In this document: positions 20,937-38,100 of the stretch, in pieces | Position numbering within the stretch: the stretch's first letter is position 1 | How the letters are laid out: each line of letters begins with the position of its first letter | Origin: Oceanobacillus sojae | Lineage (GTDB): Bacteria > Bacillota > Bacilli > Bacillales > Amphibacillaceae | Assembly: GCF_900162665.1 (NCBI RefSeq) | Contig: NZ_LT727811.1 | Location: 500,063 to 564,062 of the forward strand | Direction of reading: 5' to 3' | DNA: 64,000 nt | Translations under genes and position numbers: made by a program | Notes under the pieces: generated by a model | What the model was told of the DNA's origin: nothing | Databases searched by the model: none | What the model saw: the letters and a program-made list of their open reading frames with translations, nothing else

Positions 20937-20985
20937 TTACAGAATCCCCCTTTGTAGCGCTCTTTTTAATGTCTATCTAATGAGA

Positions 20986-21013
20986 AGCATAGCATGTTGG
21001 ATTGGGATGTCAA
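20986..21013 (-). promoter_or_regulatory. Sigma-A promoter of the penicillin acylase gene
   Basis: On the minus strand TTGACA (complement of 21008-21013), a 16-bp spacer and TATGCT (complement of 20986-20991) lie 50 bp upstream of the TTG start. The -35 hexamer is a perfect consensus match. Confidence 0.65.
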
Positions 21014-21095
21014 GATTGCTATATTGTGGAATATATGCTGGAGAATTGATTTTTATATCCCGAATGCTGGTTAAAACAAAGCATTCCAGAAATCA

Positions 21096-21135
21096 AACAG
21101 AGCAATATGAGCGAGGCTGCTTATATTGCCCTGTT
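21096..21135 (-). terminator. Stem-loop at the end of the alpha-glucoside operon
   Basis: Arms AACAGAGCAATAT (21096-21108) and ATATTGCCCTGTT (21123-21135) pair with one mismatch, 24 bp past the GH4 stop codon. The following minus-strand sequence is only moderately T-rich, so termination may be partial. Confidence 0.55.
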
Positions 21136-21158
21136 CCTGTCTAAAAAACTATTATATT

Positions 21159-24094
<2,936 letters not shown>

Positions 24095-24121
24095 AACTCC
24101 TTTGTTTTAATCTATAATTTC

Positions 24122-24150
24122 AATATAAAGGCAGCGCTTTCAAATTCCAA
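24122..24150 (-). promoter_or_regulatory. Alpha-glucoside operon promoter with cre site in the spacer
   Basis: On the minus strand TTGGAA (complement of 24145-24150), a 17-bp spacer and TATATT (complement of 24122-24127). The spacer holds TGAAAGCGCTGCCT (complement of 24129-24142), which fits the cre consensus WTGNAANCGNWNNCW at every position. CcpA bound there would block polymerase: predicted glucose repression. Confidence 0.7.
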
Positions 24151-24191
24151 TGGGTTTGACGCGTTTAGAAATAGCGTAGTAACATTAGATT

Positions 24192-24214
24192 ATATTTTCA
24201 TATAACGAAAATAT
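24192..24214. promoter_or_regulatory. Inverted repeat, candidate RpiR operator
   Basis: ATATTTTC (24192-24199) and GAAAATAT (24207-24214) form a perfect 8-bp inverted repeat between the EIICB gene and the divergent RpiR gene. It lies immediately upstream of the latter's ribosome-binding site. Candidate site for autoregulation or for activating the operon. Confidence 0.45.
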
Positions 24215-24237
24215 TTTCAGTAGAAGAGGTGGGCAAG

Positions 24238-24987
24238 ATGATTTTAGATAAACTGGTAAACCAATACTTTGATGATTTAAATGAGAATGACTTACATATT
24301 ATTAAAACGATTCATGAGCACATTGATGAAATGAAGACAATGAAAATTCAGGATCTGGCTAACTATGCTCATACATCCATTTCTTCTATTCATCGCCTTA
24401 CTAGAAAGATAGGCTTGGATGGCTATAGTGATTTAAAATCTTATATTAAATTAAACAATTTCACGGAGGGTACTACCCAGGATTTGATGGAGCTGCTTAA
24501 CCAGGATATCCAGCAGACAATGAAGTATATGGAGCAACTGGACTTTCACCAGCTAAATCAGCTGATTGACCGTGCTCCTTATATTTATATTTACGGTACT
24601 GGTACAGCTCAATTGGATTTAGCGAATGATGTGCAGAGGCAACTATGGTCGCTCCATAAAAAATCCCAGGTAATGCGGAGTGAACGGGACTTCACAGATG
24701 GACTCGGAGAAATTGATAAGGATGATCTGTTATTTATTATTTCTTTATCCGGAGAATCGAAAAACCTGGATGAGATCATTCATATGATTAAAACAAGAAA
24801 TATTAAATATATCAGTGTAACAACATTGCGAAATAATTTACTGGCTCAAAACGCAATGTTTAATATCTATGTAAACAGCACACCATTTTATCTTTATAAT
24901 AAAGTGGACAACTCGAGCTTTCTGCCGTTCTATATTGTTTTTGATATTATTCTTAGGAAGTTTAGTGAGTGGAAGATGGGAAGATAG
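24238..24987 (+). CDS. RpiR-family regulator of the alpha-glucoside operon (GlvR/MalR-like)
   Basis: Seen: about 249 residues. An RpiR helix-turn-helix fills about 1-75 (HTSISSIHRLTRKIGLDGYSD), and a SIS domain lies at about 105-235 with IYGTGTAQLDLAND and FIISLSGESKNLDEI phosphosugar loops. A GTG at 24229 is in frame but lies inside the GAGGTG ribosome-binding site, so ATG 24238 is chosen. Known: B. subtilis GlvR (YfiA) is an RpiR-type activator encoded in the glv operon. Here the gene diverges instead. Inferred: senses maltose-6-phosphate or a relative. Confidence 0.9.
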   Translation: MILDKLVNQYFDDLNENDLHIIKTIHEHIDEMKTMKIQDLANYAHTSISSIHRLTRKIGLDGYSDLKSYIKLNNFTEGTTQDLMELLNQDIQQTMKYMEQLDFHQLNQLIDRAPYIYIYGTGTAQLDLANDVQRQLWSLHKKSQVMRSERDFTDGLGEIDKDDLLFIISLSGESKNLDEIIHMIKTRNIKYISVTTLRNNLLAQNAMFNIYVNSTPFYLYNKVDNSSFLPFYIVFDIILRKFSEWKMGR

Positions 24988-25099: not shown

Positions 25100-26098
25100 T
25101 CATTTCTTCAAATGATTATTATCAATAAATTCGTCAAAATCACTATACCCATCTTTATCTATACGTTGTTGGTTATATTTCTGATACTCTTCTATGGCAG
25201 TTTTATCAGCTACAGCCTTCGCTACCCTACCAGCTCCTTGCAGAATTTCCCTCTCGTCAAATTCTAGAAAAGCGTCTAATCTTTTTTTCCAATCAGCCAT
25301 ATACATTGGTTTTCTTCGCTCTGCTTGATCCTCTGCATAGTCTAAATATCTTGTAACAATGCGATTTAAAGATTTTAGTTCTTTTTCGGTTAAGTAGTTT
25401 TTGGCTACTGTCACGTCTTGTCTCCGAATTTTTTCTCCGCTCCAAGAAGTAAGGCCCATATTCTTATTTTTTGCTCTTGCTCTACTTTCAATCAGTTCTG
25501 CAGCAGTTTGACCATGAATAGCAAAGTGGAGCTTATTCTGTACTGTTGCAAAGAACGCTTTTGTTATATCAGCTCTAGGATTATAGTCAATAGAGGTAGC
25601 ATAGATATCTGTAATCTTTTGATAGAATCGTTTTTCAGAAGCACGGATATCGCGAATTCTTTCAAGAAGTTCATCAAAATAATCTTCACCGAAATTACGC
25701 ATTTCTTTTAAGCGTTCATCATCCATTGTAAATCCTTTAACTAGATATTCATTCAAACGTTCTGTTGCCCATTGACGAAATTGAGTACCTCTATGGGAGC
25801 GTACACGATATCCAATAGCGATGATCATTTCTAGATTATAAAAATTAACTTTACGTTCCACCTCTCTTTTGCCTTCGTTTTGAACTATTCGGTTTTTCCG
25901 AATAGTTGAAGACTCTTGCAGTTCCTCCTCTACATATATATTTTTTATATGTTCATTAATCGTATTTACTCCTTTTTGATAAAGCTCAGCAATGGCTTTT
26001 TGTGTCATCCAGACCGTTTCATTTTCTAATCGGACATCTATTTTCGTATTTCCTTCTTCCGTCTGATAAATTAGAATGTTTGTATCATTGTTATTCAC
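25100..26098 (-). CDS. rhuM: RhuM family protein
   Basis: Seen: 332 residues. The N-terminal half matches the RhuM/virulence-protein family (VWMTQKAIAELYQKGVNTIN, a helix-turn-helix-like segment, then YNLEMIIAIGYRVRSHRGTQ and FRQWATERLNEYLVKGF). The C-terminal half is helical and charged. The GTG at 26098 has AAAGGAG eight bases ahead; the longer frame to 26125 lacks a site. Known: rhuM was first named on a Salmonella pathogenicity island and occurs sporadically, often beside restriction-modification or other defence genes. Biochemical function is not established. Here it stands alone between operons, consistent with horizontal acquisition. Confidence 0.88.
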   Translation of the reverse strand: MNNNDTNILIYQTEEGNTKIDVRLENETVWMTQKAIAELYQKGVNTINEHIKNIYVEEELQESSTIRKNRIVQNEGKREVERKVNFYNLEMIIAIGYRVRSHRGTQFRQWATERLNEYLVKGFTMDDERLKEMRNFGEDYFDELLERIRDIRASEKRFYQKITDIYATSIDYNPRADITKAFFATVQNKLHFAIHGQTAAELIESRARAKNKNMGLTSWSGEKIRRQDVTVAKNYLTEKELKSLNRIVTRYLDYAEDQAERRKPMYMADWKKRLDAFLEFDEREILQGAGRVAKAVADKTAIEEYQKYNQQRIDKDGYSDFDEFIDNNHLKK

Positions 26099-26323
26099 TA
26101 ATCTCACTCCTTTCATAGTGGTCACGATTCAAATATACAAAATATACATCTAAATATTATTTTAATATTCTCTCTCTAATTCTCCCCTTTATTCTACCAC
26201 TTTTCTTTATTCACCAGTATGATGATTTTAATCATTCTATCTGCTATTTATGTATTTCTCCAAGAGTATGATAGCGTGCTAGATAAGATTCTATAACTAT
26301 GAGGTATATAATTTTATCTTTTG

Positions 26324-26369: not shown

Positions 26370-27575
26370 TCATTTCGTCAGTGATTCATCCTCATTCTCC
26401 TCTCCTTTCCTCTCCCGTTCCTTCTTCAATCGTTCCTGCCGTTGTCTTTGGCGATAACCATAAGTCGCATTCAGCACAACATCCTCATCCTCCAGCGCTG
26501 TACCGAGCGCACCAATAACTGTAGCCACACTGGCAGCAATCCAGGCAATGTAGAAATAATTGATCAGTCCTGGATCTCCTGTAAGCTGATCCTCCAGCAT
26601 CCCCATCGGAATAAAAACAAATACACCGACCAGGAATAAACCAAACAGCATCACATAGTAAATGCACACTGTAATAAATAACGTAAAAAATGTCGTTGCA
26701 TTATACAGTCTTCGCACATAGCTGATATTCTGATCCCGCTTTCTCTCCCATAACCGATGAATCAAAATAATCCATATCGTCATCGCCAATATAGAAAAGA
26801 CGGTAAGTAAACACATTCTGAAAATCGTATAATGCTCGCTTAACAGCCATAAGGTTGGAAAAACAAGTGCATAAGAACCTGTAGCAAAAGCGATAATCAG
26901 GATTTTCAGAAATGTTGGAAACAGAGCCCAAGGCCGATTTGCTCGTACCATTCCAGCCAATAAACGGATAGAAATACTTCCTCTGCGTCCTACTGTAAAA
27001 CGGACATCCAGGTATTCCTCTTCCCCATCATCCGGTGTCTCGCGCTTAAGTGGCGACAGCCAGCCTAGGAATCTGCTTGTCATCAAATTTTTAGGGTCAC
27101 CTACATTTATCCCTTTGTGCTTGCTTCTCTTTGACTCGATGCGCAATGCAGAACGTTCCCGGTTTTCGTCTGAGCTTCCGTAGTACATTTCATTCACGAG
27201 CTGCATAATCGATTCACGCAAACGCCTGATCATCAAGGTTGAGCCAAAGCTGGGCATACTGATAAGCGCTATATTTTCATCTTCATTTGCTTCGGCAACA
27301 ATCATTCGATTGTCTATAAATAGAGGAATGTCAGTTAGGCAGATAGCATAATCCCATTCCTTCTCCTCTTTCATTTTCTCAGTGGCCTCCAATATTTGTT
27401 TTGAATTTGCACCTCCACCGAGCAAGGGATCCTCTATATACTCAATTTTCCATTCTATTTCTTCTTTTACATAATACTCAAGCAGTGATGGCAATTCATT
27501 TTGCAGCCTTGCTCCTATTTCTTCTGGATAACCTGGTGCAGTTATCAGACCGATATATTCCGTAGTTTCGCTCAA
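26370..27575 (-). CDS. Membrane protein of unknown function with a soluble N-terminal domain
   Basis: Seen: 401 residues. A soluble N-terminal domain of about 140 residues is predicted alpha/beta (EYIGLITAPGYPEEIGARL, DYAICLTDIPLF). A basic linker follows, then about four to five membrane helices (220-365) and a highly charged Arg/Glu-rich tail (RQRQRQERLKKERERK). No family was recognised. It is monocistronic with its own terminator. Inferred: inner-membrane protein with a cytoplasmic sensor or enzyme-like head; the conserved-looking ICLTDIPLF and GGGANS segments may form a ligand site. The start sits next to a GAGGTGAACC-type site, which is acceptable. Confidence 0.8.
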   Translation of the reverse strand: MSETTEYIGLITAPGYPEEIGARLQNELPSLLEYYVKEEIEWKIEYIEDPLLGGGANSKQILEATEKMKEEKEWDYAICLTDIPLFIDNRMIVAEANEDENIALISMPSFGSTLMIRRLRESIMQLVNEMYYGSSDENRERSALRIESKRSKHKGINVGDPKNLMTSRFLGWLSPLKRETPDDGEEEYLDVRFTVGRRGSISIRLLAGMVRANRPWALFPTFLKILIIAFATGSYALVFPTLWLLSEHYTIFRMCLLTVFSILAMTIWIILIHRLWERKRDQNISYVRRLYNATTFFTLFITVCIYYVMLFGLFLVGVFVFIPMGMLEDQLTGDPGLINYFYIAWIAASVATVIGALGTALEDEDVVLNATYGYRQRQRQERLKKERERKGEENEDESLTK

Positions 27576-27920
27576 ATTGGGTTCACCTCTATTTTCTGTA
27601 TGCTATTTTCTGTAATAACTATGTTCCTTTAACCGAAAAAGGAGATGTTTAAACACTTCATTTATAGAATCAAAGGGAATTAGACAGCTTTTATCTAAAT
27701 TGACCCGTAATGTAATAAATATTAATTTACCCTGAGAAAATGCATCATTCTTTAAAAAGAAGCTGTTTTCCCTGACTATTCAGCAATAATTAGACACCCT
27801 GTCATCATAATAACTCTATATTATTTTTTCTGAAAATTACTTGTTATCCTTCCATATTTGTGTTAAGGTTTTAAAAAGTTTAAACTTCTTTTTCTTTAAA
27901 AATGAAGGAGGGGCTTCTTT
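27576..27920. promoter_or_regulatory. Intergenic promoter region of the RpiR/amino acid operon
   Basis: 345 bp without a gene. A weak promoter is proposed: TTGTTA (27841-27846), 17-bp spacer, TAAGGT (27864-27869). Just downstream lies the perfect 12-bp palindrome AAGTTTAAACTT (27876-27887), placed where a repressor would block initiation. Inferred autoregulatory operator for the RpiR gene at 27921. Confidence 0.45.
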
Positions 27921-28790
27921 TTGGAAAATGATCTGCCTATTAAAGACTTAATCGAAACACATTTTAATGCCTTATCAAAGAAACAGCAGAAGGTAGCAAA
28001 TTTCGTATTAAATAACCCAACCTTTGTTGGTACACATTCCGCAGCTGAGGTTGGAAAGAAAGCTGAAACAAGTGAAACAACCGTTATCCGCTTTTGTTAT
28101 GCACTTGGGCTTGAGGGCTACGCACAGCTGCAAAAGAAAATTACCTTATTTGTTTTCAACCAAAATACTGTCAGTACGCTGGGGAATTATTTTTCAGCAA
28201 AGAAGAAGCTGTTTAACGATCAGCACCTGATTGAAAAAGCAATGGAAAAAGATATCGCGCAAATTGACAGAATTGCTAAACAAATAGATAAAGAATTATT
28301 CTATAAAGCAACACATCAATTACATCAAGCAAAAAAAATATATATTATCGGTGCCGGTGCATCACAATTCCCTGTCCAGTGGCTGCATTTCACATTAAAT
28401 ATTCTGCGCCCGAATGTATCGATTATTCAAACCGACACGCCGGAGCTTATCCGGACGATGCAGGAAATAGATGAAGACTCTGTCGTCATCGTTATTTCCT
28501 TACACCGCTATTTTAAAGAACCGATCCATATTGCGGAAGCTCTTCATAAGCGGGGAATAACTGTGCTTGCTATAACAGATTCCAAGCTGGCACCGATCCA
28601 AAAGCACTGTTCTCATTCTTTTATATTGGAGCAAACCGAAAAATCAACGATTGATTTAATGCCATCGCTTATTTCCTTCCTTAATCTAATGGTAACAGGG
28701 ATGATGACATTTGATCCGAATTATTATGATAAGCAGCGTGTGAACTTCGATGATTTTAATAATAGTTTTATTTCTGACAGATGGAGTTGA
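27921..28790 (+). CDS. MurR/RpiR-family regulator of the amino acid racemase operon
   Basis: Seen: 289 residues. A helix-turn-helix domain fills about 1-80 (ETSETTVIRFCYALGLEGYAQ) and a SIS domain about 125-265 (IYIIGAGASQFPVQWLHFTL, VVIVISLHRYFKEPIHIAEAL). Start is TTG, about ten bases after GGAGG. It ends 5 bp before the M20 gene, so it is probably first in a five-gene operon. Known: RpiR members mostly sense phosphosugars. Oddity: its operon encodes amino acid enzymes, so its ligand may not be a sugar phosphate. In the second loop the usual SxSGxT is SLHRYF, which lacks the phosphate-binding serines. Confidence 0.88.
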   Translation: MENDLPIKDLIETHFNALSKKQQKVANFVLNNPTFVGTHSAAEVGKKAETSETTVIRFCYALGLEGYAQLQKKITLFVFNQNTVSTLGNYFSAKKKLFNDQHLIEKAMEKDIAQIDRIAKQIDKELFYKATHQLHQAKKIYIIGAGASQFPVQWLHFTLNILRPNVSIIQTDTPELIRTMQEIDEDSVVIVISLHRYFKEPIHIAEALHKRGITVLAITDSKLAPIQKHCSHSFILEQTEKSTIDLMPSLISFLNLMVTGMMTFDPNYYDKQRVNFDDFNNSFISDRWS

Positions 28791-28795
28791 GATAA

Positions 28796-29944
28796 ATGAC
28801 AAATCAGCAATTAGCAGAACGATTACAGCCAATCTTTGAACATTTGCACAAGAATCCGGAAATAAGCTGGAATGAAGCAGAAACAACAGCATATCTGGTG
28901 GATTTTCTGCGCCAAGAGGGTTTGGCGCCACACACATTCAGCAATATGACCGGGTTATATGTAGACATCGGAAAAGGTACTCCCAAGGTTGGATTTAGAA
29001 CCGATATAGATGCTTTATGGCAAGAGGTAGATGGAGATTTCCAGGCAAACCATTCATGTGGTCATGATGGCCATATGACCGTAGCTCTCGGTGCTGTCCT
29101 CTTATTAAAAGAGCTCGAGCCGACCTTGCCAGGGGCTGTCCGCATCCTTTTCCAGCCGGCCGAAGAAAAAGCACAGGGAGCAAAAGCTTTTGTTGACCAA
29201 GGCGTTATCGATCCGCTCCAGTTTTTATTCGGCACACATGTCCGCCCACTCATAGAATTAGGAGACGGAACTTACGCACCAGCTTTACATCATGGTGCAG
29301 CGAAGCTTTTCACAGGAGAAATTCATGGTGTAGAAGCACATGGTGCAAGACCGGAACAGGGAGCGAATGCTATTGAGGCTGCAGCTTCACTGATTGATGG
29401 ACTAAAACGTATTTGGATCAGCCCTGCTGAATCGGCTTCTATCAAAATGACACAAATACGGGCAGGCGGAACATCAACAAATATCATTCCGGGCAGTGCA
29501 GTATTCAGTATTGATGCACGGGCACAAACAAATGAAACAATGGATGCTTTGACCGCAGGCTTTGAAAAGGCTGTTAAAGCAGTCAGCACACTGTATGATG
29601 TTTCCATTGATTACAAAGTAGATGCCCATATTGCTGCAGCTCAAGTGGACGACACAGCCAAATCCATTATGAAGCAGGCAATTATCGATGTGGCAGGAGA
29701 AGAAAATTGCGCGCCTGAGGTCATCACACCGGGAGGAGAGGATTTTCATTTTTATACGTATTCCAAGCCGCATCTGCAAACAACGATGCTAGGTCTCGGA
29801 TGCGGGGTGACGCCAGGGCTCCATCATCCCCAAATGACATTTAATCAAAAACGCCTGCCGACCGGAGCAGAAATTATTACACGGGCACTTGTCCTTGCAC
29901 TACAACAGACAAAGAAAGAAGCGATACACAATGATTCAATATAA
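28796..29944 (+). CDS. M20 amidohydrolase, predicted N-succinyl/acyl-L-amino acid deacylase
   Basis: Seen: 382 residues. Metal-binding FRTDIDAL and CGHDGHM, catalytic AEEKAQGAKAF, HGVEAHGARPEQG in the dimerisation domain and TPGGEDFHFY near the C-terminus are complete for an M20D amidohydrolase. Known: these hydrolyse N-acyl amino acids. In the Geobacillus kaustophilus pathway a member of this superfamily desuccinylates N-succinyl-L-amino acids. Inferred by context: it lies next to a GNAT acyltransferase and a racemase, so it should perform the last, irreversible step. It overlaps the GNAT gene by 14 bp. RBS GGAG is ten bases upstream. Confidence 0.88.
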   Translation: MTNQQLAERLQPIFEHLHKNPEISWNEAETTAYLVDFLRQEGLAPHTFSNMTGLYVDIGKGTPKVGFRTDIDALWQEVDGDFQANHSCGHDGHMTVALGAVLLLKELEPTLPGAVRILFQPAEEKAQGAKAFVDQGVIDPLQFLFGTHVRPLIELGDGTYAPALHHGAAKLFTGEIHGVEAHGARPEQGANAIEAAASLIDGLKRIWISPAESASIKMTQIRAGGTSTNIIPGSAVFSIDARAQTNETMDALTAGFEKAVKAVSTLYDVSIDYKVDAHIAAAQVDDTAKSIMKQAIIDVAGEENCAPEVITPGGEDFHFYTYSKPHLQTTMLGLGCGVTPGLHHPQMTFNQKRLPTGAEIITRALVLALQQTKKEAIHNDSI

Positions 29945-30749
29945 AGAACTAAAAACAATGGCAGAAATGGAACAAATTCAGGATCTTGAAGGAAGAGTGT
30001 GGGGAATGACAGCCCTTCCCACCCATCAGACACTTACCGCAGTCAAAAATGGAGGCATCATCGTCGGAGCTTATGCAGATGGAGAACTAATCGGCTTCAG
30101 CTATGGATTTGCAGGCTTCGATAACGGCAAAAGCTATCTATGCTCTCACATGCTTGGCATTGACGCGGCATACCGTTCCCGGGGTATCGGAGAAATGCTG
30201 AAGCAAAGACAACGGGAGATTGCCATTCGGAAAGGCTATGACATGATGAAGTGGACATATGATCCGCTGGAAACACGTAATGCCTATCTCAATCTCACCA
30301 AGCTGAACGGTATTTGCCACACCTATATTGAAAATTGTTATGGTGAAATGCAGGATGGCTTTAATAAAGGGCTTCCTTCAGACCGCTTTGAAATTCATTG
30401 GCATCTGAAAAGCCCACATGTGGTGGAAAAACAATCGGTTAACACAGGAAATCCGAGAACTCTAAACACGCTGTGCTTTAATCAGGAAAGCTTACCCGTC
30501 TTTCACAAAGAGAAAGAACTCGCAGAATTGACGGAATATTCCTATTCCATTGATGTGCCTAAGGATTTTCAAGGGTTAAAAGCAGCAAGCCAAGAGCTGG
30601 CGATGGATTGGAGACTGCAGACAAGAGAGCTGTTCCAGAAACTTTTTACAGCAGGTTACGCCGCTGTACAGCTGAAAGCCTATGAAAACTACGGAAAATA
30701 TATTTTTGTAAAAAAAGACATCTTAGACCTTGGAGGAGATCAAACATGA
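29931..30749 (+). CDS. GNAT acyltransferase, predicted succinyl-CoA:D-amino acid N-succinyltransferase
   Basis: Seen: 272 residues with a single GNAT core. [20 protein letters not shown] is the CoA pyrophosphate loop (RxxGIG). [15 protein letters not shown] is the C-terminal core strand/helix, followed by about 110 extra residues. The frame opens earlier, but ATG 29931 gives the natural start; its RBS is weak and it overlaps the M20 gene, suggesting coupling. Known: a GNAT of this size acylates D-amino acids in the N-succinylamino acid racemase operon of G. kaustophilus. Assignment here is by gene context; acetyl rather than succinyl donors cannot be excluded. Confidence 0.85.
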
Positions 30750-31852
30750 AAATAAAAGAAATCACGATCCGTCATTTACAAATGAAGCTAAAAGCACCTT
30801 TCACAACAAGCTTTGGCACATTTACAAACCGGGACTTTTTGTTACTGGAAGCAAAGGATGAGGATGGTACCATCGGATGGGGTGAATCCGTTGCCTTCCA
30901 CGCACCCTGGTATAACGAGGAAACGCTGCAGACTAATTGGCATATGCTGGAGGATTTTCTAATCCCGCTTATTTTAAATAAAGAACTAAAACATCCAGAT
31001 GAAGTAAATGAAATCTTTGCCGCCATCCGAAAAAATAATATGGCAAAATCGACCCTTGAAGGAGCCGTCTGGGATATTTATGCACAGCAGACCAATCAAT
31101 CTCTGGCAACAGCATTAGGCGGAGCAAAAGAAAAAATTGAAGTCGGTATCAGTATCGGCATTCAAAAATCCATTGATGATCTCGTCACTTTAGTAGATGG
31201 TTACATTCAAGAAGGCTATAAGCGTATGAAAGTAAAAATTAAGCCTGGCTGGGACGTAGACGTGATGCGTACATTACGTGAAAAATTCCCGGACACAGAT
31301 ATTATGGCAGATGCCAACTCTGCCTATCGCTTAGAGGATGCTGACCTGTTAAAGCAGTTAGATGACTTTGATCTGATGATGATTGAACAGCCTTTAGCGT
31401 CGGACGATATTATTGATCACGCCAAATTACAGCAGAAACTCAAAATACCTATCTGCCTGGATGAAAGCATTCATTCATTGGAGGATGCACGAAAAGCAGT
31501 CGAGCTCGGAAGCACCAAAATTATTAATATCAAAATTGGCCGTGTCGGCGGTTTAACCGAAGCGAAGAAAATCCATGATTACTGTGCAGAAAATGGCATT
31601 CCAGTGTGGTGCGGCGGGATGCTGGAATCCGGGATTGGCCGCTCCCATAACGTTGCTTTAACAACCTTGCCTAACTTTATCTTACCAGGTGATACTGCCG
31701 GATCCAGCCGCTACTGGGAAAAAGATATTATCACACCGGAAGTTGTTGCAGAAAATGGTTATATCACCGTTCCAACCACAGCTGGAATTGGTTATGAAGT
31801 AGATCGGGAAGCTGTAGAGAACTACACCGTAGCACAGAAAGATTACAGATAA
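30746..31852 (+). CDS. Enolase-superfamily N-acylamino acid racemase / o-succinylbenzoate synthase family
   Basis: Seen: 368 residues. The muconate-lactonising/enolase barrel has base KxK at about 162-164 ([11 protein letters not shown]), metal ligands Asp189 (DANSAY), Glu214 (IEQPL) and Asp239 (CLDES), and the opposite base Lys263 (NIKIGRVGG). This spacing equals the well-studied Amycolatopsis NSAR/OSBS. Known: members dehydrate SHCHC in menaquinone synthesis, racemise N-succinylamino acids, or both. No men genes are nearby, while a GNAT and a deacylase are, so racemase is the favoured role. The ATG overlaps the GNAT stop by 4 bp. Confidence 0.92.
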
Positions 31853-31865
31853 GGGAGATAGTCAG

Positions 31866-32918
31866 ATGAAAAAGAGTTTTCAAATAGGAAGTGCCTTTGT
31901 TGGTCTTATTATCGGAGCCGGATTTGCTTCCGGGCAGGAAGTGATGCAATATTTCACCAGTTTTGGTATCTGGGGAACAGTCGGCGGGGTTGTCGCTACT
32001 CTCCTCTTCATCTTTTTAGGCTATACCTTTGCCCAACTGGGAACAGATTTGCAGGCAGCCTCTCATAAAGGCGTGATTTATCATATTGGCGGACGTTATA
32101 TTGGAGCAATATTGGATATCTTGATTACCTTTTTCTTATTCGGTGTCGCTGTTGTAATGTTTGCAGGCTCCGGTTCCACCTTTGAGCAGATGTTTGGCAT
32201 TAATACAATGGCAGGAAGCATCATTATGGTGGCACTGACTATCCTGACATTACTATTAAATACCAAAAAAATTATCGGCATCATCGCAGCAATCACCCCT
32301 TATTTAATCGCGATTATCTTTGTCATTTTAATCTATTCTATTTTTACAATGGATTTATCCCTTTCTGAGGCAGATGCCATAGCAAAAGAACAAACTTCTG
32401 CAGCATCGAACTGGCTGTTAAGTGCTTTTCTTTATGTATCTTATAACCTGGCAGCAGGGGCAGCCTTGCTAATTGTTATGAGCGGCGGTGAGAAAGACCG
32501 TAAAGTTGCCGGTCTTGGAGGCATTTTGGGAGGAGTGACGCTTGGCGGTTTGATTATCCTGATTCACATCGGTATGTTCGTGAAAATAGACGTGGTTGCT
32601 GGAATGGACATGCCGACCCTTGCATTAGCAGAACAAATCCACCCGGTTGTCGGCATCCTGATGGCCATTGCATTACTTGGCATGATGTATAATACAGCAG
32701 TAGGCATGTTCTACTCCTTTACGGTACGTTTTATTTCACCTGACAGTAAAGCCTATAAGCCTGCTGTGGTTATTATTGGATTACTTGGATTCATAGCCAG
32801 CTTTGCCGGTTTTACAACACTTGTCGGGAAGGTATATTCTACGATGGGCTATCTGGGATTTGCTTTGATTATTGCGGCGATTATTGCCTGGTTCAGGAGG
32901 AGTAAGGCCGGGGTTTAA
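31866..32918 (+). CDS. YkvI-family membrane transporter
   Basis: Seen: 350 residues with about ten membrane helices. It starts with the characteristic VGLIIGAGFASGQEVMQYFT, as in B. subtilis YkvI, a relative of branched-chain amino acid carriers in the APC superfamily. It lies 13 bp after the racemase gene with a GGGAGAT-type RBS, so it is the last gene of the operon. Inferred: carries the amino acid substrate (perhaps a D- or N-acylated amino acid) or exports the L-amino acid product. YkvI itself has no proven substrate, so direction and cargo remain open. Confidence 0.88.
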   Translation: MKKSFQIGSAFVGLIIGAGFASGQEVMQYFTSFGIWGTVGGVVATLLFIFLGYTFAQLGTDLQAASHKGVIYHIGGRYIGAILDILITFFLFGVAVVMFAGSGSTFEQMFGINTMAGSIIMVALTILTLLLNTKKIIGIIAAITPYLIAIIFVILIYSIFTMDLSLSEADAIAKEQTSAASNWLLSAFLYVSYNLAAGAALLIVMSGGEKDRKVAGLGGILGGVTLGGLIILIHIGMFVKIDVVAGMDMPTLALAEQIHPVVGILMAIALLGMMYNTAVGMFYSFTVRFISPDSKAYKPAVVIIGLLGFIASFAGFTTLVGKVYSTMGYLGFALIIAAIIAWFRRSKAGV

Positions 32919-33017: not shown

Positions 33018-33048
33018 CAATTCGTAAGTGTGTTTAAAAATAAATAGC

Positions 33049-33120
33049 ACCCCGTATATTCCTGGTAATATGGTCCGGGAGTCTCTACAGAGTAACCGAT
33101 AATTACTCTACTATGGACGG
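33049..33120 (+). promoter_or_regulatory. Guanine-class purine riboswitch aptamer
   Basis: Seen: three-way junction with the conserved purine elements. P2 is CCTGG/CCGGG enclosing the AATATGG loop, GTCTCTAC joins P2 to P3, and P3 is AGAGTAA/TTACTCT (33089-33095, 33103-33109) enclosing CCGATAA. P1 is CCCCGTA with TATGGACGG, including a small bulge. The ligand-specifying base in ACTATGG (33111) is C, which reads guanine/hypoxanthine; adenine sensors have T. Two terminator hairpins follow. Known: guanine binding favours termination in such leaders. It controls the NCS2-like permease and phosphoribosyltransferase downstream. Confidence 0.93.
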
Positions 33121-33148
33121 TTAATTATAATAGAGTAAACTGACAGAG

Positions 33149-33195: not shown

Positions 33196-33230
33196 GGTCG
33201 TCTATTCAATAAATAGGCGGCCTTTTCTAT
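33196..33230 (+). terminator. Second terminator hairpin before the permease gene
   Basis: GGTCGTCTATT (33196-33206) pairs along all 11 positions (three G-U) with AATAGGCGGCC (33212-33222), loop CAATA, then TTTTCTATTT. It is stronger than the first hairpin; either or both may respond to guanine. Confidence 0.75.
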
Positions 33231-33333
33231 TTGCTGGCTGGTTACTTATCAGCTTTGTTCAGGATGTATTCTATTATAGTTGCCAGCCTCTATTCAACCA
33301 ATGCAGATATGCGGGTGCAAATGGAGGAAATAC

Positions 33334-34404
33334 ATGGATATTTTGAAGGATATTCTGGCAGCATTAAGCGGTGTGCTGAATGGGCTGCCTCAAGGCTTGC
33401 TGGCATTAGCATTCGGCTTTGCTTCCGTCCCTACCGCTTTAGCATTTATTGTCGGAGCTGCGGGAAATGCCTTTACTGGAACAGTAGCAGTCATTTCATT
33501 TCAGGCAGAATCTATTACTGTTGCCGGTACATTAGGGAAAAATATGAAAGAAAGGCTGTCAATGCTTTTCTTTGGAGCCTGTTTCATGGTCATCATTGGC
33601 GCTTTCGGTCTTCTAGAACGTATTGTGGAATGGATTGGTCCTGTCGTCACCGCAGGCATGATGGCAGGTGTCGGTCTAATGCTGACAAAAGTAGCCTGGG
33701 ATATGGCTAAGAAAGACAAGCTGGCTGGTATTATCTCCTTTGCCAGCGCCCTGGTTACTTATATTGCAACACAGGATCTGGTTTATACCATTGCCGTTTC
33801 TGTGATTCTTTCCAGCCTGATTTATTACTTTGTGCATAAGAATGATACTGCCGGCGAAGCTCACCCTCTCCCTAAAGAGAAAATAGCGCTCCAGCCCTTT
33901 GTCTTTAATCCGGCTGTTATCCGCGGCGCTTTGGCATTGGCCTGTTTAAACATTGGGGCTAATATCGCCTTTGGCAACATTAATAGTGCGATTGCTGAAA
34001 AAAGCTTAAATCTTGATGTTCTTACCGTTATCAGCGGTGCTGCTTCTATGGTCTCTGCATTATTTGGCGGCGGCCCTGTTGAAGTTGTTATTTCTGCCAC
34101 AGCCAGCGCTCCTCATGCCGTCTGGTCAGGTGTTTTAATGATGATTATTATGGCAGTTATTCTTCTTTTTGGGGTTCTGCCAAAAATAGGGAAATACATA
34201 CCGACCGCATCGATTGCAGGCTTTTTGTTTGTTCTGGGAGCAATCGTTACATTACCGGGTAATGCGATCGAATCTTTAACAGCAGATGGTTCCGGCGGCA
34301 TCGTCGGAGCAACTACGATCGTGGTAACTTCCATTACCGATCCTTTTATCGGAATGGTCGCAGGTGTCGTCATGCAATTCTTAATTAATTTATTCGGATT
34401 CTAA
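33334..34404 (+). CDS. NCS2-like purine permease
   Basis: Seen: 356 residues with about eleven to twelve hydrophobic segments and the internal GNAFTGTVAVISFQ and SALFGGGPVEVVIS motifs of nucleobase carriers. It is shorter than classical PbuG/PbuX (about 430). The frame is open from 33280, but ATG 33334 has GGAGG six bases upstream and starts MDILKDILAAL. Inferred: takes up guanine, hypoxanthine or xanthine, because a guanine-class riboswitch lies in its leader and a phosphoribosyltransferase follows. Subfamily uncertain; it could be a compact NCS2/SulP-fold branch. Confidence 0.85.
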   Translation: MDILKDILAALSGVLNGLPQGLLALAFGFASVPTALAFIVGAAGNAFTGTVAVISFQAESITVAGTLGKNMKERLSMLFFGACFMVIIGAFGLLERIVEWIGPVVTAGMMAGVGLMLTKVAWDMAKKDKLAGIISFASALVTYIATQDLVYTIAVSVILSSLIYYFVHKNDTAGEAHPLPKEKIALQPFVFNPAVIRGALALACLNIGANIAFGNINSAIAEKSLNLDVLTVISGAASMVSALFGGGPVEVVISATASAPHAVWSGVLMMIIMAVILLFGVLPKIGKYIPTASIAGFLFVLGAIVTLPGNAIESLTADGSGGIVGATTIVVTSITDPFIGMVAGVVMQFLINLFGF

Positions 34405-34422
34405 TAAAACGGGGTGGACAGA

Positions 34423-34956
34423 ATGAAAACATTTGAGATTGATATAAAAGGCTTGAAGAGAGTATTGCCGATCGTTGCGGTAGCAGAGGATTTAAATATT
34501 GCCAGCTTTGATATTCTGGGGGATACAGAATTAGTTACTTATCTTGCTCCATTATTAGCAGAAAAGCTGCCGGAAATCGACTATATCGTAACCGCTGAAG
34601 CAAAAGGTATTCCGTTAATTCATGAAATATCAAAGGTGCTGGAAATGGATACATACATTGTTGCACGAAAAAGCATTAAACCTTATATGCAGAACCCGCT
34701 GGTTAAAAAGGTAACTTCCATTACAACACAGAAGGAGCAGACCTTATGCCTTGATGGAAAAGATGCTGATTTACTTCATGGAAAAAGAGTTGCCATTATT
34801 GATGATGTGATCAGTACAGGCGAATCTGTACGTGCACTGGAGAAGCTTTTAGAAGAAGCAGGTGCAAATGTATTAGCCAAGGCTGCTCTTTTAGCTGAGG
34901 GCAGTGCTGCTGAGCGGGCGGATATTATCTTTTTGGAGGAATTGCCTTTGTTTTAG
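34423..34956 (+). CDS. Purine phosphoribosyltransferase family protein
   Basis: Seen: 177 residues. A type I phosphoribosyltransferase with PRPP loop VAIIDDVISTGES and an Apt-like TAEAKGIPLIHEIS segment. ATG 34423 follows GGGGTGG; an upstream GTG lies inside that site and is rejected. Known: such enzymes join PRPP to a nucleobase, giving a nucleotide and pyrophosphate. Inferred: salvage of the base brought in by the preceding permease, as in the xpt-pbuX pair of B. subtilis but in reversed order. Overall look is closer to adenine than to xanthine transferases, so base specificity is unsure. Confidence 0.88.
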   Translation: MKTFEIDIKGLKRVLPIVAVAEDLNIASFDILGDTELVTYLAPLLAEKLPEIDYIVTAEAKGIPLIHEISKVLEMDTYIVARKSIKPYMQNPLVKKVTSITTQKEQTLCLDGKDADLLHGKRVAIIDDVISTGESVRALEKLLEEAGANVLAKAALLAEGSAAERADIIFLEELPLF

Positions 34957-35107: not shown

Positions 35108-35782
35108 CTAAATAAAGGTAGTTAACAAGGTGCCCCAAACCAACGTAATTAGGGCAGCGAAAATCATCGCTAATGAAGAAAAAACAGATTCCTGTTTTCC
35201 ATATTCCAATGCTTTACTCGTACCAACACCATGTGCCCCCATTCCTAAAGCCAGCCCCTTCGCAATCGGTGTCTTGATGGATAGCCACTTCAGCACTTTA
35301 GGTCCAACAATCCCTCCTGCTATTCCAGTTATAATAACAAAAACCGTTGTCAATGCCGGCAATCCTCCAATCTCTTTAGATACCTCCATTGCAATAGGTG
35401 TTGTAATCGATCTGGGAAGAATGGAAACAATAAAATCATCACTCAAATGAATTAACTTTGATAACAAAAAAGTAGAAATCATAGCCACAAGCGTTCCAAT
35501 TGTAATGCTGACGGCAATTGTTCCGAGGTATTTTTTTATAGTCGGCAAGTTCTTATAAATAGGAACTGCAAATGCAACCGTAGCTGGTGCCAGCATATGC
35601 GACAATAGTATCGAGCCCTGCAAATATTGGTTGGCAGATACATGTGTGATAGTAATTAACACGATTAATAGTATTGGTGCCAGCAGCAAGGGATGAAAAG
35701 CAGCTATGGATATTTTTTTATAAATCTTTTTAGAAAGTAAATAAATCAGATACGTTACAATTGTAAATACTGCAATGATCAA
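35108..35782 (-). CDS. LrgB/CidB-family membrane protein
   Basis: Seen: 224 residues, normal for LrgB, with about six to seven helices and the conserved PKSITTPIA-like segment, here LPRSITTPIAMEVSKEIGG, plus GAHGVGTSKALEYG. The open frame runs to 35968, but a TTG at 35782 has AAGGAGG upstream and gives the family start MIIAVFTIV; it overlaps the cidA-like stop by 4 bp. Known: CidA/LrgA and CidB/LrgB pairs form a membrane system linked to murein hydrolase export, cell death or small organic acid transport. It matches B. subtilis YwbG. Confidence 0.9.
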   Translation of the reverse strand: MIIAVFTIVTYLIYLLSKKIYKKISIAAFHPLLLAPILLIVLITITHVSANQYLQGSILLSHMLAPATVAFAVPIYKNLPTIKKYLGTIAVSITIGTLVAMISTFLLSKLIHLSDDFIVSILPRSITTPIAMEVSKEIGGLPALTTVFVIITGIAGGIVGPKVLKWLSIKTPIAKGLALGMGAHGVGTSKALEYGKQESVFSSLAMIFAALITLVWGTLLTTFI

Positions 35783-36147
35783 TGCCCTTCCTCCTTCTTC
35801 CTGGCAGATACTTTTTCCGCAGTTAAAGCCGTTACACCCATGACAATCATCGTACTGATAAGAATCAAGAATATAATACCCAGCCCCTGCAGACTGAAAA
35901 TCTGTTGATAATTCACTATTCCTACTGCCGAAGGGATAAAGAATAACAGCAGCTCGGCCATTAGCCATTTAGCACCCTGCTCCACCCATTCCAGCTTGAT
36001 TAGGTTGCAGCACAGGGCTACAAACAATAGAAACAATCCAAGCATAGAAGACGGGATTGGCAAAGGAATAAAATGTTTTAATACTATTCCTAAGAAGAGA
36101 AAAACATGTAAAAAGCCTATTTGTAAAATAACCCCTATTATTTTCAT
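35779..36147 (-). CDS. cidA: CidA/LrgA-family holin-like protein
   Basis: Seen: 122 residues with four membrane helices, the second beginning after the conserved IPLPIPSSMLGLFLLF, and the FIPSAVGIVNY motif typical of CidA/YwbH. A charged C-terminus (EKVSARKKEEGH) follows. Known: small holin-like partner of LrgB/CidB. The gene is translationally coupled to the LrgB gene (TTGA overlap) and lies 107 bp downstream of the LysR gene on the same strand, as in ywbI-ywbH-ywbG of B. subtilis. Inferred: response to overflow metabolites such as acetate or pyruvate. Confidence 0.92.
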   Translation of the reverse strand: MKIIGVILQIGFLHVFLFLGIVLKHFIPLPIPSSMLGLFLLFVALCCNLIKLEWVEQGAKWLMAELLLFFIPSAVGIVNYQQIFSLQGLGIIFLILISTMIVMGVTALTAEKVSARKKEEGH

Positions 36148-36242: not shown

Positions 36243-36257
36243 ATAACTCAAAGTTAT
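36243..36257. promoter_or_regulatory. Inverted repeat, candidate LysR-type site
   Basis: ATAACT-CAA-AGTTAT is a perfect 6-bp inverted repeat of the AT-rich type bound by LysR regulators. It lies 96 bp upstream of the cidA-like start and overlaps the end of the LysR gene. Candidate activation site; low certainty. Confidence 0.35.
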
Positions 36258-37135
36258 AATGAATCGGTTAAAATAAAATCAATAAACTTCCTCCCAGCAT
36301 TGGAAATGTATTTCCCTTTTTTCGTAATGACAGCCAGCTTCCAAAGGATAGTCGGTTTAAGACTGATAATATGAATATCCTTCGTAAACAGACGGTTACA
36401 GATCGATTGCGGTAAAATGGCTATTCCCAAATTGGCTGCTACCATCTCAGACATCAGATCCCACTGCATACTCTTAAATAAAATTTTTGGTTCAAAGCCT
36501 GCCGTAATAAAGAAATGGTTTCGTACAATCTGGTTTAAGGCAAATTCCTCATGGTAAAAAATAAATTCTTCATCCCTTAGCTCCTTTACATTCACTTCTT
36601 TAGAAGAAGCAAGCGGATGATTCTTATGAACAATCAGCTTCATCTCCTCCTCCACGATAGGATAAACATCAAAAATCTGCTCATCTATAGGAAGTACTGC
36701 CACGCCAAGCTCAAACTCTCCCTCTTCTACACTTTTTACAACCCTCGCTCCCCCGTATTCAGTAATATCTAATTTAATATTAGGGTAACTGCGATGAAAT
36801 TTCTTCATAACCTTCGGGAAAAATAAGCTCCCAATAAACGGTGGCAGTCCAATATTAAGCTGGCCCACTGAAAAATTAGTCAAGTCATTTAACGTCAATT
36901 TCATTTCATCCACTAATCCTGTTATTTCCTGCGTGTATTCTAACACCATATTGCCTGCATCTGTTAAGTCGATCGTCTTGTTAGTACGAATAATCAGGGT
37001 AGTTCCCAGCTCCTCCTCCAATGCCTTGATAGACTTGCTTAATGCCGGCTGGGAAATATGAATTTGTTGGGCAGCCTTTGTAATACTTTTATGCTTCGCC
37101 ACTTCCTTGAAATAAAACAATTGTTTTAATTCCAA
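36254..37135 (-). CDS. LysR-family regulator of the cidA/lrgB pair (CidR/YwbI-like)
   Basis: Seen: 293 residues. The N-terminal winged helix is MELKQLFYFKEVAKHKSITK with ISQPALSKSIKALEEELG, and an effector-binding domain fills about 90-293. A GTG at 37144 is in frame, but it lies within the GGAGG site; TTG 37135 is eight bases after GGAGG and gives the classic LysR start. Known: CidR of staphylococci and related regulators activate cidABC in response to acetate from overflow metabolism. Inferred same role because the target pair lies just downstream on the same strand. Confidence 0.9.
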   Translation of the reverse strand: MELKQLFYFKEVAKHKSITKAAQQIHISQPALSKSIKALEEELGTTLIIRTNKTIDLTDAGNMVLEYTQEITGLVDEMKLTLNDLTNFSVGQLNIGLPPFIGSLFFPKVMKKFHRSYPNIKLDITEYGGARVVKSVEEGEFELGVAVLPIDEQIFDVYPIVEEEMKLIVHKNHPLASSKEVNVKELRDEEFIFYHEEFALNQIVRNHFFITAGFEPKILFKSMQWDLMSEMVAANLGIAILPQSICNRLFTKDIHIISLKPTILWKLAVITKKGKYISNAGRKFIDFILTDSL

Positions 37136-37299
37136 AATCGCCACCTCCGTTTTTAACTATAACTAATATATCATTTTTTAGAAAACCACTCATGCTGCCA
37201 CCAATTAAATGAAATATTTCATTAATCCTTCCAGCAAATATCCACCCACGTTATAATAATAACTAAAGTATTGTACGCACCTGTTGAAAGGAGAGAATC

Positions 37300-38100
37300 A
37301 TGGATATTTTAATGAAGATTCAAGAAGACTATCTGAACTTTTCCAAACAAGAAAAAAAAATCGCTGATTATATATTGCGCTTCAGCCATGAAATTAACAA
37401 TATGAAAATTGGAGAGCTGGCAAACAGAACAGGTACATCTAATGCATCCATTACGAGATTTGTAAAAAGAATTGGCTGTAACAATTATTCCGATATGAAA
37501 TTTCTTATTAACGCCAAAGCTGATCCGGAAGAGAATCAGGAAACACACGGGATAGCAGACGAAGTGCTTGTATACTATCAAAATGTTATAAAAAATACAC
37601 AGCGGTTAATTGATATAAATAAAATCCAAGCCTTCATGGGCTTAATCAAACAGGCTGAAAATATTAATATCATAGGTATCAGCAGCTCCGGTGTTACCGC
37701 AGATCTTTTCAGCATCCGGTTAATGCGGATGGGATTAACGGCAAAAAGTTATTCTGACCCTTTATGGATGCTTATGCAAGCAAGTATAGCCAAGCCGGGA
37801 GATTTATTTATAGCTATTTCAAACAGCGGTACTACTCATTCCATTGTCGAAACACTTACAGAGGCCAAAAAAAATGGAGCAACGATTGTCTCTATCACCG
37901 GTTATTTCGAAAACCCCGTTTCTAAATTAAGTGATCTGGTATTTTACGTATATAACACCCGTTTTGTCCATGATGAAAAATTTTCAAACTCGCAATTTTC
38001 CATGGTTTATTTAATGGATGTTATTACCACCTTTCTTCTGGAGGATGAAGAATTTAAAGATAAAACACTCAAAACAAGAGAAATTGTTGGAGATTTATAA
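37300..38100 (+). CDS. MurR/RpiR-family regulator, probably of the mannose-family PTS operon
   Basis: Seen: 266 residues. A helix-turn-helix domain fills about 1-75 (GTSNASITRFVKRIGCNNYSD). A full SIS domain at about 110-245 has both phosphosugar loops, IIGISSSGVTADLFS and IAISNSGTTHSIVETLTEA. AAAGGAG lies seven bases ahead of ATG. It has its own terminator, then the PTS operon on the same strand. Inferred: senses the sugar-6-phosphate made by the downstream permease and binds the palindrome over that operon's -10 box. Specific sugar unknown. Confidence 0.9.
   Translation: MDILMKIQEDYLNFSKQEKKIADYILRFSHEINNMKIGELANRTGTSNASITRFVKRIGCNNYSDMKFLINAKADPEENQETHGIADEVLVYYQNVIKNTQRLIDINKIQAFMGLIKQAENINIIGISSSGVTADLFSIRLMRMGLTAKSYSDPLWMLMQASIAKPGDLFIAISNSGTTHSIVETLTEAKKNGATIVSITGYFENPVSKLSDLVFYVYNTRFVHDEKFSNSQFSMVYLMDVITTFLLEDEEFKDKTLKTREIVGDL

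Follow-up and report, generated by a model that had tools for sequence, protein, structure and literature searches.

In a 64-kb window of the Oceanobacillus sojae genome (the whole stretch of DNA analysed here, 64,000 nucleotides from an assembly of 4.80 Mb in 18 contigs; all coordinates are window positions), five plus-strand genes from the list of open reading frames (ORFs) encode, in order, an RpiR-type regulator, an M20-family amidohydrolase, a GNAT-family acyltransferase, an enolase-superfamily enzyme of the N-acylamino acid racemase/o-succinylbenzoate synthase family (NSAR/OSBS; hereafter the racemase) and a carrier that we take to be YkvI-like. We consider it likely that these genes form an inducible operon for the one-way conversion of D- to L-amino acids, and that the operon includes an enzyme shared with menaquinone synthesis. 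In the proposed route, D-amino acids would be imported by the YkvI-like carrier and acylated by the GNAT, probably with succinyl-CoA if the Geobacillus pathway is a guide. The N-acyl amino acid would then be racemised by the enolase-superfamily enzyme, and hydrolysis of the N-acyl-L form by the M20 enzyme would pull the reaction one way, as the families and co-occurrence of these two enzymes suggest. RpiR, with a non-sugar SIS pocket, may bind two RAAG-N6-CTTY palindromes near the promoter and the ribosome-binding site and thereby repress the operon, while the same racemase is probably competent as an o-succinylbenzoate synthase. The gene set and order, the active-site residues, the palindromes, the loop change in RpiR and a men operon without menC can all be read in the sequence; from them we infer the substrates, acyl donor, effector and directions. 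The original prediction, made from the DNA letters, had proposed a D-to-L route through N-acyl intermediates, with peptidoglycan as a possible source of the D-amino acids; the route remains the best reading, backed by the way the five genes travel together, but the racemase is probably bifunctional.

The five genes are closely packed. Specifically, the ORF coordinates bear out the overlaps of 14 and 4 bp claimed before, with spacings of +5 bp from RpiR to M20, -14 bp from M20 to GNAT, -4 bp from GNAT to the racemase and +13 bp from the racemase to the carrier gene. For the GNAT gene, the ATG at 29931, where homologues begin to align, is taken as the start; the ORF list gives an upstream TTG at 29889. 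Domain searches assign HTH_6 and SIS to RpiR, Peptidase_M20 and M20_dimer to the amidohydrolase, Acetyltransf_1 to the GNAT and the N- and C-terminal MR_MLE domains to the racemase, and no Pfam or NCBIfam family matches the carrier at E <= 0.001.

This arrangement recurs in many genomes. Of 151 genomes sampled from the class, among them that of the window, 31 have a GNAT homologue at E <= 1e-40. The named loci are the best 80 of 562 confirmed GNAT stretches, a selection that favours close GNATs. All five genes lie on one strand within 6 kb and in the same order in 53 of these 80 loci, one of which (L156) has an extra RpiR-like gene downstream. In a second set of 79 loci (18 chosen by GNAT, 60 by racemase, and the window's own), 16, counting the window's, hold all five genes in identical order. 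Neighbours were labelled by BLAST to window or own-genome proteins at more than 60 bits; six genomes or more are shared by the two sets, and the second racemase locus of the host genome (L006) was omitted from the neighbour counts. Across the 69 five-gene loci, the median gap is 5 bp ahead of each of the M20 and GNAT genes, 1 bp ahead of the racemase gene and 76 bp ahead of the carrier gene, and the order is kept where the GNAT is only about 45% identical to that of the window. Named relatives with a GNAT 83-86% identical belong to Oceanobacillus sojae, O. oncorhynchi and O. jeddahense. With 53 complete sets among those 80 loci, the supposition that RpiR and YkvI are a combination new to this genome is not sustained, and a unique status of the window operon in joining them was rejected on these neighbour counts.

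Loci chosen by racemase rather than by GNAT give a complementary view. Among the 60 such loci (L092-L151), which cover roughly half of 120 racemase places outside the host genome, 22 contain a GNAT gene. The carrier gene adjoins 11 of these 22 loci and none of the 38 without GNAT, and a same-strand RpiR gene is found in 15/22 versus 0/38 and a same-strand M20 gene in 15/22 versus 2/38. The distribution of the carrier indicates that it follows the GNAT pathway rather than the OSBS role. The neighbours of NSAR homologues, which had been put forward as a check, thus include RpiR and the carrier as recurring partners where GNAT is present. In L208 and L215 (Psychrobacillus), two carrier genes stand in tandem at the end of the operon.

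The catalytic trio itself is already known. In Geobacillus kaustophilus, an NSAR, a GNAT succinyltransferase and a desuccinylase reportedly form a D-to-L route, said to have been described by Sakai et al. in 2006 (Biochemistry 45:4455). The window shares with that pathway an NSAR/OSBS-family racemase, a GNAT and an M20 enzyme, follows the same proposed logic, and has the GNAT, NSAR and M20 genes clustered as in a Geobacillus-type irreversible pathway. In the window, the operon further includes an RpiR gene, preceded by a defined palindrome, and the gene for a carrier of predicted LeuT fold. The recurring unit with regulator, operator and carrier is the more complete form, and it provides a complete, testable salvage module. 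In the open-licence literature we found papers on NSAR/OSBS enzymes and no paper on this operon, and none of the YkvI titles concerned it.

The racemase scores 401.6 bits against TIGR01928 (cut-off 200.65), which places it in the NSAR/OSBS family. The predicted active-site residues are K162 and K164 of the KxK motif, the metal carboxylates D189, E214 and D239, and K263 as the opposing lysine; all are present, as originally noted, and none varies in any of 150 distinct relatives. Additionally, position 266 is Arg in 148 of these relatives and Lys in 2; Arg266 is a second-shell residue tied to racemase specificity. Over nearly its full length it aligns with NSAR/OSBS enzymes of the PDB, best with that of Listeria (lin2664, 1wuf, 367.7 bits), then with that of Deinococcus (1r0m, 357.1 bits), and also with that of Amycolatopsis (1sja, 340.8 bits); lin2664 shares both the KxK...D...E...D...K pattern and R266. 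The genomic setting of these three enzymes differs from that of the window racemase, whose proposed function is drawn from sequence.

The M20 protein scores 265.2 bits against TIGR01891 (cut-off 153.75). Its putative metal ligands C88, H90, E123, E124, H148, H343 and H344 are kept in at least 95% of 90 sequences; conservation was counted in sequences of more than 38% identity from GNAT loci (90 for M20, 113 for GNAT). The predicted GNAT model has a pLDDT of 92.5 and resembles PDB acetyltransferases, with a best E of 3.3e-8 and a TMq of 0.36-0.48 among the 50 matches listed, and the GNAT sequence finds no PDB match at E <= 0.001. The protein is longer than the PDB GNATs matched, and since its Pfam match covers residues 23-108, the core common to GNATs probably does not extend into the C-terminal part. 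GNAT homologues 59-62% identical occur in L163, L168 and L174 (Lacicoccus, Salinicoccus), where no racemase, M20, RpiR or carrier homologue was recognised within the fetched stretch, which in L174 is cut by a contig end. The AlphaFold2 model of the carrier (pLDDT 83.7, pTM 0.84) predicts a LeuT/APC fold: a Foldseek comparison with the PDB returns CodB (TMq 0.73), AdiC (up to 0.72), BasC (0.68) and LeuT (up to 0.68). The predicted fold is alike in all of them, yet the carrier is only 12-17% identical to these proteins and has no sequence-family match.

Unlike the phosphosugar repressors of the RpiR/MurR group such as HexR, with which it has HTH_6 and SIS in common, the window RpiR carries an S-x-x-R-Y loop where those repressors have one of S-x-S-G-x-T type, the type that belongs to a phosphosugar SIS domain. 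HexR is its best NCBIfam match at 94.3 bits, below the cut-off of 296. The earlier observation that the SIS domain lacks a phosphosugar loop is thus confirmed, SLHRY standing in its place, and S193, R196 and Y197 are each kept in at least 90% of 93 relatives. When 11 other RpiR proteins of the host were aligned (a set without at least two more RpiR genes, those at 24229-24987 and 37300-38100), nine had an S-x-x-G loop, one S-P-Y-T and one S-x-x-R-Y, and this only paralogue sharing R-Y is the one at the second racemase locus. The ligand of the window RpiR may be of carboxylate type.

A palindrome, RAAG-N6-CTTY, accompanies these RpiR genes. In a set of 93 distinct RpiR proteins of at least 30% identity, at least one copy lies in 87 of the 93 upstream regions, and at least two copies in 53. 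For comparison, 1049 regions upstream of other ORFs from these loci gave 35 with at least one copy and 2 with at least two; in shuffled sequence the fraction with at least one is 0.013. Split by layout, the palindrome is found at 83 of the 85 loci with GNAT and at 4 of the 8 with the divergent arrangement. Some of these regions had been viewed before the pattern was chosen, and the comparison is accordingly not a blind one. A genome scan with RAAGTYTAWACTTY hits both RpiR-racemase loci and four more places, six in all, and the reversed control pattern three; given these numbers, no wider regulon is claimed. We tentatively propose that RpiR proteins with the S-x-x-R-Y loop are a class of SIS regulators that may sense a carboxylate, either a D-amino or an N-acyl amino acid, instead of a phosphosugar, act at RAAG-N6-CTTY and, by way of the shared racemase/OSBS, tie salvage to menaquinone, and that the DcuC-type sister locus described below may have the same regulator class for N-acyl amino acid uptake. 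The altered loop offers a direct way into the question of what this branch of RpiR proteins senses. Consensus scans round the operon returned promoter-like and terminator-like sites at about the shuffled rate (19 versus a shuffled mean of 14.6, and 4 versus 5.2, respectively), and the candidate promoter at 27841-27869 must be regarded as weak because it is absent among the scan matches.

The men genes of the host, named by NCBIfam, consist of menA on the opposite strand followed by menF-menD-menH-menB-menE. The operon does not contain menC; after menE comes a mechanosensitive-channel gene. In Bacillus-type men operons (L143-L145), by comparison, the gene directly 3' of menE is a racemase homologue, a MenC 42-48% identical to both host copies. 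In a 120-genome sample of the family, with the racemase called at E <= 1e-70 and MenD at E <= 1e-60, 108 genomes have the racemase and 107 MenD; 107 have both and 12 neither, so that the two agree in 119/120. No genome has MenD only, and the single mismatch, G150 (75% complete), has the racemase without MenD. Among 22 further genomes, the racemase is found in 22/22 and MenD in 21/22. The same-genus genome G006 is instructive: it has MenD, its menE likewise precedes a mechanosensitive-channel gene, and its one NSAR/OSBS protein at E <= 1e-70, 88% identical to the window copy, lies within the same five-gene operon (L078). The only other G006 gene over the PF13378 cut-off is 63% identical to a host epimerase-like gene and matches L-Ala-D/L-Glu epimerase best (263 bits, cut-off 500), with a TIGR01928 score of 157 bits, below the cut-off. 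The orthologue of the window racemase is hence the only OSBS candidate found in G006, where the classical set of menaquinone genes is present, one against two in the window genome. With no menC in the men operon and no OSBS candidates found outside this family, the racemase is unlikely to be dedicated to D-amino acids; it is probably bifunctional and serves as the menaquinone OSBS too. Such a duty, if real, would explain the apparent menC gap in these genomes and would be a natural case of one promiscuous enzyme kept for two chemistries; in genomes like G006, it might put the supply of a respiratory cofactor under the control of an RpiR repressor.

The same data raise the question of whether the enzyme is physiologically only a MenC displaced from the men operon, its GNAT/M20 neighbourhood being historical and its racemase activity a by-product. 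We regard this as unlikely. Besides the near-perfect agreement with MenD, the men operon without menC and the sole candidate in G006, it can draw on the Amycolatopsis enzyme, whose biologically relevant function is given as OSBS in a review (PMC4215206) that also calls the evolution of the NSAR and OSBS reactions a topic of investigation. Against it speak the repeated linkage with GNAT, M20, RpiR and carrier, the spare paralogue in the host genome, and G024 (99% complete), the exception among the 22 further genomes, which has no MenD match at E <= 1e-60 and yet carries, on a single strand, the series racemase, GNAT, M20, RpiR (L091, L256). This set therefore has a use apart from menaquinone. 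An OSBS-only racemase together with a gap in the men genes had been named in advance as grounds for refutation; of these two, the gap is the one found here, the men operon lacking menC. The argument that a missing menC makes the D-to-L finding wrong was rejected in view of G024.

The paralogue lies on contig C15 of the host genome, is 58% identical to the window copy, and shares with it the distinction of being the only host genes that pass the TIGR01928 cut-off. Two more enolase-superfamily genes of the host match L-Ala-D/L-Glu epimerase best (267 and 238 bits, cut-off 500) and reach 165 and 137 bits against TIGR01928, below its cut-off. The C15 racemase is divergent from another RpiR gene and beside a gene of the sodium:dicarboxylate-symporter family; its locus (L006, 9228-11311) combines the second NSAR/OSBS gene and the divergent S-x-x-R-Y RpiR gene with one RAAG-N6-CTTY site, and no M20 or DcuC-type gene was seen between or directly beside the two. 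A divergent M20 gene is retained in some relatives of this locus, and a DcuC-type carrier gene in two that were examined. In the window genome, either NSAR/OSBS copy could act as OSBS. A quick maximum-likelihood tree of 107 racemases, into which 26 of the 80 named loci entered and of which only starred branches were used, long branches being flagged, places the window racemase in a starred set of 18 with Lysinibacillus, Ureibacillus, Heyndrickxia, Neobacillus, Chryseomicrobium, Salinicoccus and Jeotgalicoccus; a few members of its own family and genus also belong to this set, among them G001 and G006. The operon racemases of other same-genus genomes (G003, G012 and G020; G007, G011 and G022) are placed elsewhere. 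It is likely that the operon was transferred horizontally or that alternate copies were lost. The C15 racemase falls in another starred set, of 8 members, which share the divergent-RpiR layout. In L125 (7961-10307, G071), tandem racemase genes, each 60% identical to the window copy, occur without GNAT.

A sister layout dispenses with the acyltransferase. In L147, the racemase gene is directly preceded by a gene very like, by eye, the DcuC-family carrier gene of L129, RpiR and M20 are divergent, and there is no GNAT; L129 is arranged in the same way, except that its carrier gene is split into two frames, each of which matches DcuC. The carrier gene was examined in these two loci; RpiR and M20 are also divergent from the racemase in L124, L130, L148, L149 and L150. 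The C15 locus of the host retains the regulator and racemase of this arrangement. The layout suggests uptake of ready-made N-acyl amino acids, and it lends some colour to the idea that the window operon likewise scavenges N-acyl amino acids made elsewhere. Another variant, to which the aminoglycoside and phosphinothricin acetyltransferases among the fold matches of the GNAT lend some colour, is that L-amino acids or xenobiotic amines are detoxified or modified. Both are quite improbable here, since the window operon includes a GNAT gene and its carrier is predicted to have the LeuT fold instead of being of DcuC type, and a racemase between acylase and deacylase makes little sense for L-amino acids. 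That the five genes are functionally unrelated chance neighbours, for which nothing speaks but the loci missing one or more of them, is close to untenable and is already contradicted by their recurrence, by an order kept at about 45% GNAT identity and by the tight median gaps.

Several points weigh against one-way D-to-L conversion by a bifunctional racemase. The C15 paralogue could be the real OSBS, which would leave the window copy a dedicated racemase. Nothing in the data separates succinyl from acetyl transfer, or a D- from an L-preference, for the GNAT, and carriers of the LeuT fold can also transport nucleobases or metals, CodB and Nramp being among the top carrier matches. The unit is sometimes incomplete: in the 80 named loci, some of them cut by contig ends, same-strand partners of GNAT are the racemase in 76, the carrier in 66, RpiR in 63 and M20 in 61. 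The 27 incomplete loci comprise GNAT-racemase-carrier (6), RpiR-GNAT-racemase-carrier (6), RpiR-M20-GNAT-racemase (4), GNAT without a same-strand racemase (4), M20-GNAT-racemase (3), GNAT-racemase (3) and M20-GNAT-racemase-carrier (1). Moreover, RpiR and M20 are divergent in 7 of the 38 GNAT-less racemase loci, and the pair is thus not exclusive to the GNAT layout. Finally, the counts are not independent events, because many of the compared sequences are related.

Table 1. Genes and candidate control sites of the five-gene operon.
Feature	Position	Strand	Basis
Candidate operon promoter (weak), TTGTTA / 17 nt / TAAGGT	27841..27869	+	By eye from sequence
Proposed RpiR operator 1, AAAGTTTAAACTTC, RAAG-N6-CTTY palindrome	27875..27888	.	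Pattern in upstream regions
Proposed RpiR operator 2, GAAGGAGGGGCTTC, overlaps ribosome-binding site of first gene	27904..27917	.	Pattern in upstream regions
RpiR-type putative repressor, HTH_6 + SIS, SIS loop S193-x-x-R196-Y197	27921..28790	+	Domain search, alignment
M20-family amidohydrolase, proposed N-acyl-L-amino acid deacylase	28796..29944	+	TIGR01891, conserved residues
GNAT, proposed D-amino acid N-acyltransferase (putatively succinyl-CoA)	29931..30749	+	Acetyltransf_1, predicted model, homologues
NSAR/OSBS, N-acylamino acid racemase, probably also o-succinylbenzoate synthase	30746..31852	+	TIGR01928, active site, genome comparisons
YkvI-like carrier, predicted LeuT/APC fold, proposed D-amino acid importer	31866..32918	+	AlphaFold2 model, Foldseek, neighbourhoods

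Downstream, a purine riboswitch aptamer (33032-33133, RF00167, 76.2 bits) begins about 113 bp 3' of the operon, and the consensus scan finds no terminator-like site between the carrier gene and this aptamer. A terminator-like hairpin (33196-33222) follows the aptamer and precedes a permease-like gene (33280-34404) and a phosphoribosyltransferase gene (34414-34956). Further on lie an LrgB-family gene (35108-35968), overlapped by an LrgA-like ORF recognised by eye (35779-36147), a LysR-type regulator gene next to them (36254-37144) and a further RpiR gene (37300-38100).

Upstream, the divergent neighbour of the operon (26370-27575), whose product matches no Pfam family over cut-off, has counterparts 84-95% identical in four of the five same-genus loci L074-L078 and in L152-L154, and homologues about 30% identical near the solitary GNATs of L163 and L168. 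At 25100-26125 lies a gene for a RhuM-family protein (PF13310, 396.5 bits). The region 18543-24987 includes a gene for a penicillin-amidase-family protein (18543-20936) and, beside the RpiR gene at 24229-24987, a PTS EIIBC gene and a family-4 glycosidase gene.

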